This document shows, piece after piece, positions 182 through 46,363 of a DNA stretch of 46,363 nucleotides; within the stretch, counting starts at the first letter, position 1, and every line of letters begins with the position of its first letter. Both the position numbers and the translations under genes were made by a program. The notes under the pieces were generated by a model. That model was not told the DNA's origin and searched no databases. It saw only the letters and a program-made list of their open reading frames with translations. This stretch comes from Bacillota bacterium (lineage in GTDB: Bacteria; Bacillota; JAAYKD01): assembly GCA_012522585.1 (NCBI GenBank), contig JAAYKD010000051.1:1-46363 (forward strand). Reading direction: 5' to 3'.

Positions 182-298
<117 letters not shown>

Positions 299-303
299 CA
301 TAT

Positions 304-340
304 AAATAAGACCAGTTCATAATGAACTGGTCTTATTTTT
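304..340 (+). terminator. Rho-independent terminator of rRNA operon
   Basis: AATAAGACCAGTTCATAATGAACTGGTCTTATTTTT hairpin plus T-tract directly after 5S. Confidence 0.85.
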
Positions 341-1076: not shown

Positions 1077-2270
1077 ATGAAAGGAACAAAAGGCAAAGTC
1101 GCTATAATATTAATTTTTTCTCTCTTAATTTCTCTGTTTCCAGTTACTTTAGCTAGAGATAAAATAGCTAATGTTGAATTTATTGCCTCAAGTTTAGATA
1201 AAAACAATAATTTTTCAATAACAATGTCGATAGCCAATGCGAACTTTAATGCTTTTCAATTTGTCTTGCGGTATGATTCAGATTCGATCATGCCAATAAA
1301 TCCTCAAAGCGGACTTAAAGCGGACAGGTTTTCAGATTTCACAGAAAGAAATTTAGCCCTATCAGATGTTTTGAGTGAATTAGCATTGGATCTAGATAAG
1401 GATGCTGCTTTAATAGAATTTACAAATTATTTGACGCCTGGAAAATCCTATAGCTCCGATGGTTCAACAGTTGAAAATATTGTCAGTATAGGAAATGAAC
1501 CTATCGAAATATATAAGTTTCATTTTGAAAAAATCAGTTCAAAAACACCTCTTTTGGAATTAGCAAAACAAGATGAGGTAAAGCCTTGCAGAAACTATTT
1601 ACCTGATGGTGGAGGCATAGCATATGGAGCCAAACTACCTCTAAAAATCACCTTCGACTTAACTGAACTAGAAGGTAAACTATTAGAAGAGGAATATATT
1701 CCACCAACACCTCCAGACGACAGTGATGTTCCGCCCGAAGAGCCTGTGGAGGAAGAACCAAAAAGACCAACTACTTCTACTGAACGTTTAGAAGATACTT
1801 TAGTCTTGCAGATAGGCAATTATGCTGCAGCGCAAAATGGTATTCTATGTCATATATACCCAGGTGAAAAAGATGTTGTCCCTTATATAAAAGATGACCG
1901 TACATTTTTACCCTTTCGCTTTGTTGCTGAAAGCTTGGGCTTTAAAGTTGTTTGGGATGCAAAGACTAAAAGTGTAACTTTCTACGATGAGGAACAGAAA
2001 TTGGTTTTGGTTGTAGGCGAGAAGGACTATACTAAAAATGGTGAGCTATATTCTATGGATGTAGCCCCTGAGATAATGAATGATCGAACTATGGTCCCTA
2101 TCCGCTTTGTGGCCGAAGCTCTAGGTTTTGCCGTGGAATGGGATTCTATTTCAAAAATGGTGTTCATAACCAAAGAAGAATTACCCTGGTTATTAGATGA
2201 CGAAATAGAAGTAGAAGCTACTTCAGAAATTGCCCTTATTATTTCCCCATTGATTAGAGATTTTGTTTAG
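1077..2270 (+). CDS. Secreted protein with cohesin-like N-terminal region and C-terminal copper amine oxidase N-terminal-like (stalk) domains
   Basis: Signal peptide; NFNAFQFVLRYDSDSIMPI resembles a cohesin strand; DRTFLPFRFVAESLGFKVVWD and DRTMVPIRFVAEALGFAVEWD repeats typical of Cu_amine_oxidN1; RBS AAAGGGGG before ATG at 1077 (ORF track starts at 1035). Confidence 0.75.
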   Translation: MKGTKGKVAIILIFSLLISLFPVTLARDKIANVEFIASSLDKNNNFSITMSIANANFNAFQFVLRYDSDSIMPINPQSGLKADRFSDFTERNLALSDVLSELALDLDKDAALIEFTNYLTPGKSYSSDGSTVENIVSIGNEPIEIYKFHFEKISSKTPLLELAKQDEVKPCRNYLPDGGGIAYGAKLPLKITFDLTELEGKLLEEEYIPPTPPDDSDVPPEEPVEEEPKRPTTSTERLEDTLVLQIGNYAAAQNGILCHIYPGEKDVVPYIKDDRTFLPFRFVAESLGFKVVWDAKTKSVTFYDEEQKLVLVVGEKDYTKNGELYSMDVAPEIMNDRTMVPIRFVAEALGFAVEWDSISKMVFITKEELPWLLDDEIEVEATSEIALIISPLIRDFV

Positions 2271-2284
2271 AGGAGGGATCATAA

Positions 2285-3130
2285 ATGAAAAAAATTAGAC
2301 CCTTGTTATTTTTCTTTATTTTATCAGTTTTCCTCTTTTCTTTTTCTATTTTGGCAACAACAATTACTTTGGAAGGAGTTGAAATAGATAGTTCAAAATT
2401 GCTCGTGCCTGATGAAAACTGGAAATACAGTTTGATTTACCAAGAAGAAAGCCCTGAGGAATTGAGCGATGGCCAACAAATTGTAATTTTAGTTGTCAAA
2501 GGTATTGCCAGCGAAATCGGTGGCTTGATAATTTCGGCAGATACCATACAGTATATCGACCAAACTGCTTCTACGGATACCAAGGTTGAGTTTTTAGGTT
2601 TTATGCCTAAGAAAGTACCCAATTGTACTGTTTTATTAGGTGGGATAGCTGGTGGCCCAAAAATAGTCGGTTATATAGAAGCAGAACCGGTTAGTGTAAA
2701 AGGTAAAGTTAAAATTGAGGGTTTAACACCTGCCACAATTGAGCTTGTGGATGAATTTAATCATGTACAATCTTTTTTTAGTGATTTGCCTGCGAAAAAC
2801 TCAGGTATTGCTGATTTTTTGTTAGAAAAGGTTAAGCCAGGAAATTATAGTTTTAAAATCAGCAAGTTTGGACATACTTCTCATTCCCAAACAATAGCCG
2901 TTGAAGAATTTGATTTATATATTGGCTCTTTCATAATTTATGGTGGTGATTTTAACCATAATGGCTCTATAAATGTATATGATTTGGGATTATTACTTGA
3001 TGATTACGGAAAAGATGTTAAAGATGCTTTAAATACAGCATGTGATATCAATGAAAATGGCTCTATAAATGTATATGATTTAAGTATATTTTTGGACAAC
3101 TATGGAAAGCAAAGTATTAAATTAAATTAA
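2285..3130 (+). CDS. Secreted dockerin-containing protein with carboxypeptidase-regulatory/PEGA-like domain
   Basis: Signal peptide; C-terminal duplicated DFNHNGSINVYDLGLLLDDYGK...DINENGSINVYDLSIFLDNYGK (type I dockerin Ca-binding repeats). Confidence 0.85.
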   Translation: MKKIRPLLFFFILSVFLFSFSILATTITLEGVEIDSSKLLVPDENWKYSLIYQEESPEELSDGQQIVILVVKGIASEIGGLIISADTIQYIDQTASTDTKVEFLGFMPKKVPNCTVLLGGIAGGPKIVGYIEAEPVSVKGKVKIEGLTPATIELVDEFNHVQSFFSDLPAKNSGIADFLLEKVKPGNYSFKISKFGHTSHSQTIAVEEFDLYIGSFIIYGGDFNHNGSINVYDLGLLLDDYGKDVKDALNTACDINENGSINVYDLSIFLDNYGKQSIKLN

Positions 3131-3142
3131 GGTGGTGCTATA

Positions 3143-6100
3143 ATGAGGAATAAAAAATATAGTCTTTTGTTTTTAATGTTGATATTGTCAATTTTGTTGG
3201 CTAATTTTGTTAGTGCACAAACCAAACCTCAGATAAAAGTTGAAACTAATTCTATTGAGGGTGTTGAAAATGCTTATTCAATGGTCTTTAGTGTTGAGCC
3301 TAAAAGTCTAAATTCTTCAGTTAATTTATTATCGACGGTGGTTTCTTTTGATAATACTGTTATTCAACCTATTAGAATTTTGAAAAGCGGACCTAGCGAT
3401 GTTAACATAGAAAATAACTCTGAAATTAAAACTTGTTTTCAAGTTTTAGCTGAATATGATATTGAATTAGAGTTTGAAACCTCAAAAGCAAGATGGGAAA
3501 TAGATGAAAAGAAACAAAGAACTGCTTTCGATTATGTTTTAACTCAAGCTTCTGACGGGAATTATACTCAGCGTGGCCCTCAAGATATGTTTGCCTTCAA
3601 TTTTCGATTAGCTGATGATAAAACTGTAAATGATTTAAAAAAAGGAACAATTAAAATTGAAACCGATCGAAGTGAAGGTGGCTTCTTGGCATCATTTTAC
3701 CCAGATCCTGAGGAAAGAAACGGAATTTTCCTTAAAGAAATAGACGCAACGGAGTTCTTTTACCCCAAAATTGATGGCAAAAATGAAGCAGATTTAATAA
3801 AATTCGATTATCCAAATAGCACAAAAACTATTTTAGGAAAAATTCAATTATCGGTAGAAAATGATGTTGATACAGTTTATATTCCTGCAGATGCTGAAAC
3901 TGAGCCTAACAAATTAAAGATTACTGCCAAACTATTCGACGAAGATGGCGACGATTATGAGTTGAAAGGTGAGGTTCTTTGGTCTGTAGTAGCTTCTGGA
4001 CCAAAAAATGTAGTGCTAGATGGCGATAATCCATTAGAGCAGCTTCTTGTTATAAACCCAGGTGAGGAAGAAGGAACAGTAACAATCAATGTAACAATTG
4101 AAGGAAAAACAGCATCGATAACTCTTGATGTTGAAAGATATGCTTCAGTGGTAACAGATATTAAGTTTTACTATAGTGACGAGGAAATTGTTGATTCATT
4201 TGAATTTGAAATACCCTCTGGTAGCCTGGCAAGTATTAGAACAGCTTTGATAGCTATAGCCTATGATCAATACGGTTTTGGCATGAGCAATCAAACAATT
4301 ACTTGGATCTTTCCTAATACTACTAATGTAATCTTCGAGCATGAAAATGCTGGTAGAGAATTTTATTTTAAAGTTGATCAGACAGCCCAAGCATATAAAT
4401 ACGATGTAACAGCAAAAGTTGGTGACGTGGAGAGAGATTTAGAAATCCGTTTTACGAAACTCGTTTCAGCCTTAAAAGATTCGATAGAATTTCCTGTAAC
4501 TAAATACACGGGGTCAAAATTGATGCCGAAACCCACTATTAAAGACGGAGATTATACTCTCGAAGAGAATAAAGATTATACAGTTGATTATCCTTTCGAT
4601 ATCATTGATGTTAAAAAAGATGGAGATTATATTATTGTCACAGGTCTAGATCTATATAAAGGCGATTTTGATCCAGTTGTATATGTTACCAAAGCAACTT
4701 ACTCAGGCGAATTAAAATATAGTACATTTGTTGTCAGCAATACCGATGCTACTGGCAAGACATACAATTTGCGAGAAAAGGTTGAAGAAGTGGCAGGTTT
4801 CAAGAATTTGAAATTTAAAAATCCAACCTACGTAGCAACAGGTCTTTTAACGGGTAGTCCAAGTGTGACAGAGCTGGGTATCTTAACTTTTGACGTAACC
4901 TCACAGACAGCTGGACAAAGTGGTCAGATTAAAGTCACTGTGGAAAATCAAAACTATGAAGATGTAGAAGTTTTGTTAACAGTTACAACCACCGATGTTG
5001 ATCCGGTGTGGACAGCTGTTGATACTTTATTTAAAACTCCCGAATACGTTTATGGAGATCAAAACGATAAGATTAATTTGCCCAGCAGTGGAACGGCCAA
5101 AGCTGGAGATGAAATTCTAGAAGGAAGCTTCAGTTATAAAGATGGCGCAACAATTCAAGATAGCGGTAGCAAAACCATTGCTGTCGTCTTTACTGTTACT
5201 ACAGATGGTCAATACAAAGGTGTGACTATTGAAAAGAATTACACTGTAAATATTGCACCTAAACCGATAACTGTTGTTGCTGATGATAAAGTCAAGAAAT
5301 ACGGTGAAGATAATCCAGCATTGACTTTTTCGGTAAACTCAGGCGATTTAGTTGGTAACGATACTGAAACGATCATTAAAGATGGTTTGACTCTGAGCAC
5401 AAAAGCAGGTAAAACTAGCGATGTAGGTGTGTATGATATAACAGGTGAAGACTCAGATCCCAATGATAATTATGTGATTACAGTGACAAAAGGAAAACTG
5501 ACTATCGATAAAGCAACAATAACAAAAATTAATACAGATATGCCTTCTTATTCAGAATTGGCAAATCATCCTAAGAACACAGATTTAAACAAACTTAAAG
5601 AGCTTGTCGTTTTAAATAAAGTTGAAGCTGTTTACGGTTCAAACAACAATGTTGATATATCTGTTACCTGGGATTATGTTGAGGGAACTACCTTTGATAT
5701 TAAAGGAAAAAATTATAAACTCAATGCTAAGTTTGATGTAGGCAATAACTTTGAACCATATAGCGATGCAAACTATCAAGCAACTATTACTGTAACGCCC
5801 ATAAATGGAACTCTAAAAACCGTCATAGATAAAAACGTTACAATCGCCAAAGCGACTAGGGATGCAGCTAAAGACTATGAGGATTTTGACCTACCGGATG
5901 AGCTTGAGTATAATTTGGACAATTCAGTGGGTGACAAAAAATATTCAAGTTTGAAATGGGATATGTCCCTTGATGATTTAAGAGCTATTCCAGTTGACGG
6001 CAGTACTGTAGTGACTTTGGTTCAAAGTACAGACGATGGCAATGTACCTAGCTGGCTGACCATTGACCCTGTTTCCATCACGGTGAACATCACTGAGAAG

Positions 6101-9058
6101 CATGTAATACCTTCTACTGATATTACAGTAGCATCTAAAACAATAACCTATGGTGAGGCTTTTGATCCTGTCGCTGAAAATTCAGCTTCAATCGCTAATG
6201 CAGATGACCACGGAAACCCTGTAGTAACTTATAGCTATACAGTTAAAGCTACAGGTGAAGAGCTATCTGAGCAGCCAAAGGATGCCGGTGAGTATTTACT
6301 GGTAGCCACCTATGAAAGCGATACTCATATAGGGTCAAATAGTGCAGATTTCACCATCAATCCCAAGAAGATTACAGTTATTATTGAAAATCAAGAGCGA
6401 ATTTACGGTGCTGAAAATCCTGAATTGACTTGGAAATTAGATTCAAGCTCAACTCTTGCTTTCGCTGAGGAAGAAAAAGATTTACTGGTGGAATTGACTT
6501 GCTTGGCGGATGAGAAAACCAAAGTAGAAGATTCCCCGGTCGATATTACAGGAGATTCAACCAATACAAACTACAAGATAACATTTGTAGGTGAAACCGA
6601 TCCTACCGATCTTACTGTTAATGTTGGTAAATTGACAATCAATAGGGCTCCTATTGATGCCATGACACCTGTTATCACTACAGTACCGCCAATCTCACCT
6701 GTGCCTATCGGTTACGATTTGATCGCATCTCTCCCCGGGGTTGACGATGCTGAATTGAACTGGCAATGGTACAAAGAAGGAACGCTAATTAGTGGCGAAA
6801 CAAATAAAGCCTATACTGTGAAAATAGAAGATTCCAACAAAGAATTCACAGTCAAAGCCATAGCCAAAAAGATCAACTATGAGAAAACCTCACTACCCAG
6901 CGATTCTATTGCAATCGAAAGAGCTGAAGTCCAAGGTCCAGCAAATATCACAATTTCAAACGATGTGGATCCCTTTGGGAAAATCAGTGTTGGCGATACT
7001 GTCAAAGCTGTAAATATGTTTGTACCTGATGTAGCTAAATCTTTCAGCTATAAATGGTTTATCGATGGACAAGAAGTCGTCGGTGAAACAAGTGAAACTT
7101 ATGTCATTCGACTCGAAGACAGTGACAAAAAGATTTCTGTTGAGATAAATGTTGAAGACGATTATCAAGGAAGCTCTAAATCGGCAGAATTTGAAATCGG
7201 CAAAATGATTCTTGATACATCTTTTACAATCGATGATCCAGGTGTATTAACGCCTGGCGTAGACGATCAGCTCAATGTTGACGTAAGCGGTTTAAAGGTG
7301 GCAGGAAAATATATCCATATAGACCAAGATTTCACCATCGTTTGGTTGCGTAACGGTCAACCAATTCAAGGTGAAACAGAGGATTCCTACACTTTGAAGA
7401 AAGAAGATCTAGGTCAAACAGTAGCTGTTAAATTAGTCGCTGCAGGCGATTATACAGGTGAAGGTTTTGCTACAAACAGTTTCACAATTGCTGCAGCTAA
7501 ACCAGAAGATCCAACATTCAACGGTAGTGCTGACGATCGAGTGATCAATGTTTATTGGAGCGAACCTTTCGACAACGGAAGCCCCATTACCCACTACACA
7601 TTGCAACTCGACACAGAGAACCCAATAGTCATTGCAGCAGGAATAACTCGTCATCAGTTCAAGAATCTCAAGAACGGGCAGAAATACGATGTTTATTTAA
7701 CCGCTCATAACTTAATCGGTGATAGTGCTACAGTGACCAGAAGCTTTACCCCGGTCGAGCCGGAAGAAGAATATGTTCCGGTACTACCGCCTAAACCTCC
7801 TGTAGATGAAGTGCCGGTACTTATTGACGGTCAAGAAAAGCAATTGGCAACTCAAGAAGAGAAAACATCCGAAACTGGTAAAACAGAGACCATCATCACA
7901 GTAAGTGAAGATATTGAAGAAGCTCTGGATGAAGCAAGTGCAGCCGAACCTAAGGTTGGCCTTGAATTCACTAAGCCTGCCGATACCTACACTTCTGTTT
8001 TGCCGGCCAAGGGTGCCAAGGCCATGAAGGGCAAAGGCACAGTTTTAGAAATCAAGACTCCGGAGGCAATTTTTGAACTGCCTCTCGACAAAATGGATCT
8101 TGAGGAAAAACTGGAAGAACTCTATCCAGAAGCTGATTTAGCAGATCTGAGAGTTATAGTCACAATCGGTGAAGCCGACGAAGAGACTGTAGCTGAGGTA
8201 GAAAAAATCTTAGAAACTGCCGGGTTAAACCAGGTTGCTACTCCGGTCAGATTTAAAGTTAGCGCCGAATACGAAGATGAAATCCAAGAAATTGGTGAAT
8301 TGACTGGCTTTGCAACCAGAACAATCATTTTGCCTGAAGGAACCGATCCAACTCTCGTCACGACAGCAGTAACTGTCGACAAAGAAGGAAACGTTTTCCA
8401 TCTGCCAACCCAAGTTATCGAGGTAGATGGTCAGATTCAGGTTAGAGTCAATGCTTTCTTCGATGCCGACTATACAGTGATCTATAACACCAAGACCTTT
8501 GCTGATATTGAGACTCATTGGGCCAAAGAATCCATTGAAGATATGGCAGCTCGCTTGATTGTCAACGGTGTCAACCAAGAGAATTATGAACCCAAGCGGG
8601 ATATTACCCGAGCAGAATTTGCTGCTATAATCATCAGAAGCTTAGGCCTCAAGCCTGAGATGTCTGATCAGGTCTTCAGTGATGTAGAACTGGATAAATG
8701 GTATGCCGATGTGGTCTATACAGCGGTTAAACATGGACTCATTCAAGGCTACGCTGATGGAACATTCGATCCTGATGCACCTATCACCCGTGAACAGGCC
8801 ATGACCATCATCTGGAGAGCTATGAAGCTGACCATCTTAAGAACCGATTATACAGCTGAAGAAGCCGATCTAATTATCGGTGTATTCAAAGACAATGACG
8901 AAGTGGCTAAATATGCTCAAGAAGCAATTGCCGCTTGTGTCGATAACGGAATTGTTCAAGGCCGTAGTCAAGATGAAATTGACGCCAAAGAAAGCATCAC
9001 TAGAGCTGAAGTAGCAGTTCTGGTTCAACGCATGCTGGAAACTGCCAATTTAATCTAA
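3143..9058 (+). CDS. Giant S-layer-anchored surface protein (cohesin-like N-terminus, Ig-like/MBG domains, FN3, three SLH domains)
   Basis: Signal peptide; MBG-like KPITVVADDKVKKYGEDNPALTF and KKITVIIENQERIYGAENPELTW; FN3 PEDPTFNGSADDRVINVYWSEPFDNGSPITHYTL; C-terminal SLH motifs ITRAEFAAIIIRSLG, YADGTFDPDAPITREQAMTIIWRAM, ITRAEVAVLVQRML. Confidence 0.9.
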   Translation: MRNKKYSLLFLMLILSILLANFVSAQTKPQIKVETNSIEGVENAYSMVFSVEPKSLNSSVNLLSTVVSFDNTVIQPIRILKSGPSDVNIENNSEIKTCFQVLAEYDIELEFETSKARWEIDEKKQRTAFDYVLTQASDGNYTQRGPQDMFAFNFRLADDKTVNDLKKGTIKIETDRSEGGFLASFYPDPEERNGIFLKEIDATEFFYPKIDGKNEADLIKFDYPNSTKTILGKIQLSVENDVDTVYIPADAETEPNKLKITAKLFDEDGDDYELKGEVLWSVVASGPKNVVLDGDNPLEQLLVINPGEEEGTVTINVTIEGKTASITLDVERYASVVTDIKFYYSDEEIVDSFEFEIPSGSLASIRTALIAIAYDQYGFGMSNQTITWIFPNTTNVIFEHENAGREFYFKVDQTAQAYKYDVTAKVGDVERDLEIRFTKLVSALKDSIEFPVTKYTGSKLMPKPTIKDGDYTLEENKDYTVDYPFDIIDVKKDGDYIIVTGLDLYKGDFDPVVYVTKATYSGELKYSTFVVSNTDATGKTYNLREKVEEVAGFKNLKFKNPTYVATGLLTGSPSVTELGILTFDVTSQTAGQSGQIKVTVENQNYEDVEVLLTVTTTDVDPVWTAVDTLFKTPEYVYGDQNDKINLPSSGTAKAGDEILEGSFSYKDGATIQDSGSKTIAVVFTVTTDGQYKGVTIEKNYTVNIAPKPITVVADDKVKKYGEDNPALTFSVNSGDLVGNDTETIIKDGLTLSTKAGKTSDVGVYDITGEDSDPNDNYVITVTKGKLTIDKATITKINTDMPSYSELANHPKNTDLNKLKELVVLNKVEAVYGSNNNVDISVTWDYVEGTTFDIKGKNYKLNAKFDVGNNFEPYSDANYQATITVTPINGTLKTVIDKNVTIAKATRDAAKDYEDFDLPDELEYNLDNSVGDKKYSSLKWDMSLDDLRAIPVDGSTVVTLVQSTDDGNVPSWLTIDPVSITVNITEKHVIPSTDITVASKTITYGEAFDPVAENSASIANADDHGNPVVTYSYTVKATGEELSEQPKDAGEYLLVATYESDTHIGSNSADFTINPKKITVIIENQERIYGAENPELTWKLDSSSTLAFAEEEKDLLVELTCLADEKTKVEDSPVDITGDSTNTNYKITFVGETDPTDLTVNVGKLTINRAPIDAMTPVITTVPPISPVPIGYDLIASLPGVDDAELNWQWYKEGTLISGETNKAYTVKIEDSNKEFTVKAIAKKINYEKTSLPSDSIAIERAEVQGPANITISNDVDPFGKISVGDTVKAVNMFVPDVAKSFSYKWFIDGQEVVGETSETYVIRLEDSDKKISVEINVEDDYQGSSKSAEFEIGKMILDTSFTIDDPGVLTPGVDDQLNVDVSGLKVAGKYIHIDQDFTIVWLRNGQPIQGETEDSYTLKKEDLGQTVAVKLVAAGDYTGEGFATNSFTIAAAKPEDPTFNGSADDRVINVYWSEPFDNGSPITHYTLQLDTENPIVIAAGITRHQFKNLKNGQKYDVYLTAHNLIGDSATVTRSFTPVEPEEEYVPVLPPKPPVDEVPVLIDGQEKQLATQEEKTSETGKTETIITVSEDIEEALDEASAAEPKVGLEFTKPADTYTSVLPAKGAKAMKGKGTVLEIKTPEAIFELPLDKMDLEEKLEELYPEADLADLRVIVTIGEADEETVAEVEKILETAGLNQVATPVRFKVSAEYEDEIQEIGELTGFATRTIILPEGTDPTLVTTAVTVDKEGNVFHLPTQVIEVDGQIQVRVNAFFDADYTVIYNTKTFADIETHWAKESIEDMAARLIVNGVNQENYEPKRDITRAEFAAIIIRSLGLKPEMSDQVFSDVELDKWYADVVYTAVKHGLIQGYADGTFDPDAPITREQAMTIIWRAMKLTILRTDYTAEEADLIIGVFKDNDEVAKYAQEAIAACVDNGIVQGRSQDEIDAKESITRAEVAVLVQRMLETANLI

Positions 9059-9097
9059 ACTACAGTCAGCGATTTAAAAGTATCACTAAAAGAACTG

Positions 9098-9131
9098 AGA
9101 GCTGCCGGGAATTTCCCGGCAGCTCTTTTTA
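9098..9131 (+). terminator. Rho-independent terminator after SLH protein gene
   Basis: AGAGCTGCCGGGAA/TTTCCCGGCAGCTCT hairpin followed by TTTTT. Confidence 0.9.
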
Positions 9132-9505
9132 TTTATGCTAACTCCAAAAACGAAGTTTATTTTGTAGTTTATTCTTTAAGTGCCTAAATTCTTTAGAGGA
9201 TAGGCAACAATGTGATTGATAGGTCTAGTGTGTTTGGCAATAGATAAATACAATTTTTGGCAATCAGAAGAGCAATTGGACTAATTGCCAGCACTAGCCT
9301 TATTTTATTAGTTAATTAATCATTCGACAGATTTGGCTGGTAAACATTACCTTGTGAGGATTAAGCAATAGCGGTTTTCCTTTTGCCGGCCAGATAAGTC
9401 TCTTCAACTTAAAGAAATTCGTCTAGATTCAACATAAAGAAGATATTTAGCAGGATTTTTCTTGCATTAGGAAGAAGTTGAGACTGTATAAATAAAAGGG
9501 TAGGA

Positions 9506-10746: not shown

Positions 10747-11670
10747 GTGGAAAAGATGCGACCGCGTAGTGAGCGGAAGAAAAGTCAAAAGAAAAAGTCA
10801 AATACTCCTTGGATTGTTCTGGCTATGCTCTTGGCTTTAGCTATAGGTTTCTTTTCTGCTCCATTTCTTATTAATAAAGTCTCACAAATAGAAGAAGGAT
10901 TTTTAGCCCAGCCTTTTTTCCAAAATTTAATCGAAAATTTCGAAGAGTCATATTTTGGTCAAGGGCTGAGCTCTTTTTGGCAGAATAGAAAATCTGGCAG
11001 TGAAAATGGTTTAATCGATGATCCAAAAGATCCAGGTGTAGATGAGCCTCCATCTCAGATTGAGCCTCCGGATGAGCCTGGCATTCTGCCCACTGATGAA
11101 GAAGATAAGATTCTTTTAGATTTTCCTCAGATGGAAGTCTGGTTGTTGCAATTAGCTTTCAGCCAAGACCTTGACTGGGCAGTTCAATATAGAGAAAGCT
11201 TAGAGTCTGAGTTGCCCATCTATATAGAGGAAAAAAATTCAGGGGCAATTTTGTTTTTAGGGCCTTATCCAAATTCTTTAGCTGCTCAGGAAGATTTAGA
11301 AGAAGCCGAATCCATAGGCTTTGATGAAGCTTATCCGGCAGCCTGGAACTGGCCAGAAGCTCGATTAAACTATGAAGCTTCCAATCAAGATGATTTGGTT
11401 AAAGCTAAAACCACTGCTGCATTTTTAAATATTGTCTCTCTTTTCTGGCAAGAAAATATTGATCTTAATATTTTGGCAGAGGAACTACAAATTTTAAATT
11501 CAACCAATTTTGCTTTTAACAATCCGGAAGATCAAATTGAATGGAATCATCGCTTGGAAATTTTACAAGAGCTATTCGTCGAACCTTCCAATGAAAGTTT
11601 AAAGGCTGAAATAATCTCCCTGGTTTTTAATGATAGAATCTTCTATCAAGCCTTGGATATTATTTCTTGA
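10747..11670 (+). CDS. Membrane-anchored hypothetical protein, possible SPOR-like domain
   Basis: Basic N-terminus plus one TM helix; SGAILFLGPYPNSLAAQEDLEEAESIGFDEAYPAAW resembles a SPOR-type repeat. Confidence 0.6.
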   Translation: MEKMRPRSERKKSQKKKSNTPWIVLAMLLALAIGFFSAPFLINKVSQIEEGFLAQPFFQNLIENFEESYFGQGLSSFWQNRKSGSENGLIDDPKDPGVDEPPSQIEPPDEPGILPTDEEDKILLDFPQMEVWLLQLAFSQDLDWAVQYRESLESELPIYIEEKNSGAILFLGPYPNSLAAQEDLEEAESIGFDEAYPAAWNWPEARLNYEASNQDDLVKAKTTAAFLNIVSLFWQENIDLNILAEELQILNSTNFAFNNPEDQIEWNHRLEILQELFVEPSNESLKAEIISLVFNDRIFYQALDIIS

Positions 11671-32340: not shown

Positions 32341-32372
32341 TGGAGATAATTTTTTAGTAAAAATTATCTCCA
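32341..32372. repeat. Perfect inverted repeat (14-bp stem, 4-nt loop)
   Basis: TGGAGATAATTTTT-TAGT-AAAAATTATCTCCA. Confidence 0.9.
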
Positions 32373-32600
32373 TTAGAAAATTCATTGATGTACTTTTTCT
32401 GTAAGAAAAAACTTTAGAAAATTCCGATATGTAATTGCTGAAGTTTTTTAAACTCAATCTCCATTAGAAAATTCATTAATGTACTTTTTTCTGTAAGAAA
32501 AAACTTTAGAAAATTCCGATATGTAATTGCTGAAGTTTTTTAAACTCAATCTCCATTAGAAAATTCATTAACGTACTTTTTTCTGTAAGAAAAAACTTTT
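32366..32600. repeat. Tandem repeat, about 91-92 bp period, about 2.5 copies
   Basis: ATCTCCATTAGAAAATTCATTRAYGTACTTTTTTCTGTAAGAAAAAACTTT... starts at 32366, 32457 and 32549; near-identical copies. Confidence 0.95.
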
Positions 32601-45742: not shown

Positions 45743-45770
45743 AACAACATCCAACCTACAACCTATGCAA

Positions 45771-46363
45771 ATCGGGGACAGTCTATAAGGAACTTAGGCA
45801 CAAGGTGCCGGTTCCGCAACTCCGGCTTGTGCCAAGGGCACCAAGCTGGAGCATATATAGTCAGCTCAAATTCAATGCAACACCATCGAAGTTAGACCTT
45901 ATCGAGGCAGTTTTTGCGATTGCTTCGCAGGGTTACACATCACTTATAAAGATAAAAAAGGCGCAGTTGATTCATTTCGACTGCACCTTTTTTATTACTA
46001 ATCAGTTATTTTTAACCTGCAACGACTCTGTTATTTCACTTCTTCCATAGAAGCCTTGCAAAACCGGGACAGTCTATAAGGAACTTAGGCACAAGGTGCC
46101 GGTTCCGCAACTCCGCTTGTGCCAAGGGCACCAAGCTGGAGCATATATAGTCAGCTCAAATTCAATGCAACACCATCGAAGTTAGACCTTATCGAAGCAG
46201 TTTTTGCGATTGCTTTGCTGTCGATACACATCACTTATAAAGATAAAAAAGGCGCAGTTGATTCATTTCGACTGCACCTTTTTTATTACTAATCAGTTGT
46301 TTTTAACCTGCAAAGGCTCTGTTATTTCACTTCTTCTATAGAAGCTTTGCAAAACCGGGACAG
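45771..46363. repeat. Tandem 291-bp intergenic repeat (two copies, third begins at window edge) containing palindromic repeat and terminator-like hairpin
   Basis: GTCTATAAGGAACTTAGGCACAAGGTGCCGG... at 45781 and 46072 (period 291); ACCGGGACAG recurs at the window end, at the position expected for a third copy. Confidence 0.93.

Follow-up and report, generated by a model that had tools for sequence, protein, structure and literature searches.

A conserved three-gene locus in a Bacillota genome encodes a predicted enzyme-free cohesin–dockerin surface module

We identify a compact locus in a Bacillota bacterium in which a predicted type II cohesin, an X-module–dockerin protein and a giant S-layer homology (SLH) protein are encoded side by side. 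The 46,363-nucleotide stretch of DNA analysed here (the window) corresponds to contig C185 in a draft assembly of 1.9 Mb with ~94% completeness. We consider it probable that the three genes form a dedicated enzyme-free surface module, with gene 1 as the socket, gene 2 as the plug and gene 3 as an S-layer-attached support, a reading in which we infer binding, anchoring and function. The three proteins contain no recognised catalytic domain, in agreement with a preliminary description that had proposed a compact non-catalytic cohesin, dockerin and SLH surface unit. Cohesin–dockerin interactions are among the strongest natural protein pairings known and, to our knowledge, have been studied almost only in cellulosomes. 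An enzyme-free three-gene unit whose order is kept across several genomes provides a naturally occurring system of very small size for probing the roles of this pairing outside cellulosomes, and offers a new predicted type II X-dockerin–cohesin pair for engineering.

The three genes occupy positions 1077–2270, 2285–3130 and 3143–9058 of the plus strand with gaps of 14 bp and 12 bp, and each product has an N-terminus judged by eye to resemble a signal peptide, matching the initial account of closely spaced same-strand genes for secreted proteins. Gene 1 starts at the ATG at 1077 behind a good ribosome-binding site, and Shine-Dalgarno sequences precede genes 2 and 3 as well. Upstream of the trio is the tail of an rRNA operon, with a 5S rRNA at 182–299 (plus strand; Rfam 5S_rRNA, 102.5 bits) followed by a terminator-like hairpin at 304–338 (plus strand; 16-pair stem, then a T-rich tail), and a second terminator-like hairpin at 9097–9127 (plus strand; 14-pair stem with 9 G-C pairs, T-rich tail) closes the unit. 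The short gaps, Shine-Dalgarno sequences and hairpins on both flanks make it likely that the three genes share a single transcript. Sigma-70 promoter matches were not clearly above those in shuffled sequence (37 versus 27.7, s.d. 5.5) and were set aside. Both contig ends carry a dispersed intergenic repeat (509–878 and 45766–46363), present as 61-nt copies at 509, 604 and 818 and as 2.1 copies of a 291-bp unit at 45766–46363; its core GGAGTTGCGGAACC has 4 matches in the window versus 0.15 expected. A separate 92-bp tandem repeat (32366–32599; 2.6 copies, 97% matches) lies upstream of a minus-strand ClpB-like gene.

Gene 1 encodes a predicted secreted protein of 397 aa, assigned from its open reading frame, ribosome-binding site and homologues. 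Pfam detects a copper-amine-oxidase-N (CuAO-N) domain alone in this protein (residues 266–364; 1872–2168, plus strand; PF07833, E 1.9e-35) and no cohesin, so that the CuAO-N assignment of the preliminary description holds with one domain in place of the two repeats it had counted. Its suggestion of a cohesin-like N-terminus gains support from family profiles and from structure prediction, which point to a type II cohesin domain at residues 27–196 (1155–1664, plus strand). A five-row profile of the N-terminal domain built from trio homologues matched ScaB of A. cellulolyticus in the Protein Data Bank (PDB; 3l8q, E 1e-6), and a six-row profile freed of signal peptides matched the type II cohesins 3l8q (1.4e-7), 1qzn (1.1e-4) and 1tyj (0.0018). 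An AlphaFold2 model computed from a shallow alignment of three sequences (the window and loci L040 and L041) reached pLDDT 72 and pTM 0.72 with the last 36 residues unreliable, and the best 25 Foldseek matches to this model were all type II cohesins (TM ~0.52–0.60). The same profile also finds cohesin–SLH and cohesin–dockerin proteins in other genomes, and when five of these proteins were aligned and compared with the N-terminal domain, hhalign gave 96% over 50 columns. When the entire gene 1 protein is searched, unrelated CuAO-N proteins appear in the hundreds, and only N-domain or full-length matches were kept. Together, the PDB profile, Foldseek and cohesin-protein profile matches identify the N-terminal domain of gene 1 as a predicted type II cohesin carried on a CuAO stalk.

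Gene 2 encodes a predicted secreted X-module–dockerin protein of 281 aa, supported by its open reading frame, Pfam, profile matches and homologues. A conserved N-terminal domain (2357–2683, plus strand), presumably the displayed part of the protein, is kept in six homologues and has no Pfam family match across the first ~110 mature residues. This domain is followed by an X-module resembling CnaB and carboxypeptidase-regulatory domains, with approximate limits of 2690–2941 (plus strand) set by alignment with 4u3s_B and 2b59_B, and by a dockerin at 2942–3109 (plus strand) with the two calcium-loop repeats DFNHNGSINVYD and DINENGSINVYD, both of which fit the D-x-N-x-N-G-x-I-N-x-x-D calcium-binding loop. 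The Pfam Dockerin_1 match (E 1.5e-4) lies just below the hmmscan protein cut-off and above the cut-off in the genome scan, and the model of that name covers type I and X-module dockerins alike. Compared with the PDB, the gene 2 profile is closest to X-module–dockerins of type II complexes (4u3s_B, 6.2e-16; 4wi0_B, 7.4e-14; CipA 2b59_B, 1.5e-13) versus 1.8e-7 for the best plain dockerin, and the 4u3s_B match spans profile positions 122–267, placing the X-module directly ahead of the two-repeat dockerin. Sequence resembling Pfam CarboxypepD_reg occupies the X-module position, weakly in the window and clearly in the L041 homologue. Because of this module and the margin over plain dockerins, we assign gene 2 from its sequence as an X-dockerin, the kind that usually partners type II cohesins, rather than as a type I dockerin standing alone; the two repeats first described stand, and their type I label does not.

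Gene 3 encodes a protein of 1971 aa, assigned from its open reading frame, Pfam and homologues, that by sequence fits an SLH-anchored S-layer-type protein with a signal peptide (by eye), repeats and three C-terminal SLH domains (PF00395) within 8495–9016 of the plus strand (8495–8623, 8675–8800 and 8885–9016). Pfam reports three SLH (2.4e-32), two MBG_2 (3e-23) and one FN3 (5e-9) domains, the composition that had been read from the translation, and other SLH proteins are encoded in the same genome. The N-terminal domain of gene 3 (residues 28–240; 3224–3862, plus strand) is conserved in the family and may be a remote cohesin-like fold. Pfam finds no cohesin in gene 3, and searches of this domain against the PDB gave no match and no significant similarity to any solved cohesin. 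With signal peptides removed, hhalign comparisons of the gene 1 and gene 3 N-terminal domains gave 10% in the first test and 7–48% across tests; in the comparison that gave 35%, the similar region coincides with the strand pair characteristic of the gene 1 cohesin, and the maximum of 48% extends over 117 columns with a reversed control at 0.2%. A value of 93.6% obtained with signal peptides included was discarded because it dropped to 10% without them. These comparisons are no more than suggestive of a cohesin fold at the gene 3 N-terminus. Because genes 2 and 3 share a reading frame, a joint read-through model was computed in place of a complex prediction; it was rejected as evidence (mean pLDDT 43, gene 3 part below ~40), and its Foldseek matches support the X-module weakly at best.

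The conserved gene 3 domain raises the alternative that the dockerin receptor is the SLH protein itself, through a diverged N-terminal cohesin, or that genes 1 and 3 both serve with gene 2 bridging them. Conservation of the domain with the operon and its faint resemblance to the gene 1 strand pair favor this alternative, as does a second protein in another genome, G900, that fuses a gene-3-type N-terminal domain to a true Pfam cohesin (L114:907–2295, E 1e-11), so that such domains also occur on cohesin proteins. We nevertheless regard it as rather doubtful, given the lack of a significant match to solved cohesins, the low value in the first signal-peptide-free comparison and a matching cohesin already supplied by gene 1. 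The preliminary description had cast the SLH protein as receptor and gene 1 as a stalk protein, whereas the cohesin that can be demonstrated by profile and predicted structure is on gene 1.

Looking for the triad in the genomes of other anaerobic bacteria, we found the same gene order in four of them and a modified version in a fifth, which argues that the arrangement is more than chance. G001 belongs to the same family and a different genus, and its trio (L037) also lies beside a 5S rRNA and is followed, as in the window, by aminotransferase and RnfC genes; the trio is likewise in order in L040 (CASFCW010000003.1), L041 (CALXEB010000029.1, labelled an uncultured Flavonifractor MAG) and L078 (genome G652). 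Identity to the window in genes 1 and 2 is 48–49% in G001 and 31–35% in L040 and L041. Flanking genes differ outside the sister genus, and the three genes thus behave as a unit. The modified locus of G900 (L098) retains genes 1 and 2 together with the N-terminal domain of gene 3; it has one extra gene inserted, and its gene 3 counterpart has no SLH domains, indicating that SLH anchoring is not obligatory. The module is rare: in a sample of 399 genomes from the window's phylum, the gene 1 N-domain profile located it in two, one of them the genome of the window itself. Two further observations concern these loci: the additional gene that separates genes 1 and 2 in G900 resembles the N-terminal half of an enlarged gene 2 (L098:9279–10382 and 7642–9225) and ends in a hydrophobic segment with lysines, as if it were a membrane-anchored duplicate; and window positions 10747–11670 encode a protein of 307 aa that lacks any Pfam match and sits between the aminotransferase and RnfC genes, in the same place as in G001.

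Calcium loops are imperfect in several gene 2 homologues, including repeat 1 insertions in G001 and L040, which favors a reading of the cohesin and dockerin as relics that no longer pair and persist as mere structural domains of separate surface proteins. We find this explanation very unlikely, since the cohesin and X-dockerin match in type, with genes that adjoin in five of six loci and lie one gene apart in the sixth, and since the X-dockerin 4u3s_B, which was solved in complex with its cohesin, likewise has insertions in its repeat 1 loop.

Dockerin counts bear on whether the locus belongs to a cellulosome. Pfam finds one dockerin in the window's genome, that of gene 2, consistent with the expectation that the dockerin partner is encoded next door and not only elsewhere, and no cohesin. 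One dockerin gene each is found in G001 and G400, and a second dockerin protein is present in G399 and G652. In G900 the Pfam dockerin model recovers another protein only and misses the gene 2 dockerin; all of these counts come from Pfam scans with a model that is weak on gene 2-type proteins and are therefore lower bounds. The trio might on this account anchor a reduced or incomplete cellulosome whose enzymes carry dockerins that escaped detection or are encoded in regions that did not assemble, and cellulosomes are indeed anchored by the same type II cohesin–X-dockerin pairing, with several large dockerin proteins encoded in related genomes such as G844. By Pfam, however, the window's genome has neither several dockerin-bearing enzymes nor a multi-cohesin scaffoldin, the attributes expected of a cellulosome, and a single non-catalytic dockerin gene in a 94%-complete genome, likewise a single one in G001 (97%), with other cohesins not found, leads us to give this explanation little credence. 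G844 itself encodes, besides a small cohesin–SLH protein (L081), five or more large dockerin proteins in frames of 1064–1822 aa (contigs C7 and C8; L117, L119 and L121–L123), perhaps another surface cohesin–dockerin system.

In the dedicated surface module that we favor, gene 1 would be a secreted, surface-associated monovalent scaffoldin that holds its type II cohesin out on the CuAO-N stalk, with the CuAO domain providing surface anchoring by analogy with the scaffoldins OlpC and ScaG. The X-module–dockerin of gene 2 would plug into this cohesin via calcium-filled loops, and gene 2, once docked, would expose its own N-terminal domain on the cell surface. Gene 3 would act as a long SLH-anchored S-layer-type protein giving structural support, made together with genes 1 and 2, and its conserved N-terminal domain may provide a second contact. 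The purpose of such a module would be adhesion or envelope architecture. A more specific and tentative possibility is a conserved, self-contained envelope-assembly system in which the enzyme-free cohesin–X-dockerin pair would fasten a ligand domain to a scaffold of the SLH/S-layer type. The SLH protein might itself bear another, diverged cohesin, in which case the dockerin protein would cross-link two surface proteins.

Among known systems, the type II anchoring pairs SdbA–CipA of C. thermocellum (2b59) and ScaB–ScaA of A. cellulolyticus (4u3s) share the same cohesin type and the same X-module–dockerin arrangement; in those systems the X-dockerin resides on an enzyme-carrying scaffoldin and the cohesin lies next to SLH domains, whereas the window places the X-dockerin on a small protein with no recognised catalytic domain and the predicted cohesin on a stalk of the CuAO type. 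OlpC of C. thermocellum and ScaG of A. cellulolyticus each combine a CuAO-like domain with a single cohesin of type I (PMC3413522), and OlpC is described as surface-tethered (PMC12811415). These proteins are a precedent for the layout of gene 1, which likewise pairs one cohesin with a CuAO-like domain, but in them a type I cohesin comes after the CuAO domain, whereas the predicted type II cohesin of gene 1 comes before it. Gene 3 shares its domain make-up with SLH-anchored S-layer-type proteins bearing MBG and FN3 repeats, and adds to it a conserved N-terminal domain that accompanies cohesin and dockerin genes. Cohesin and dockerin modules are known in organisms without cellulosomes (Peer et al. 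2009, as cited in PMC4300822 and PMC10066038); in the window, the predicted receptor and ligand adjoin in a conserved three-gene operon. This compact, conserved and enzyme-free operon is an unusual use of the known cohesin–dockerin pairing.
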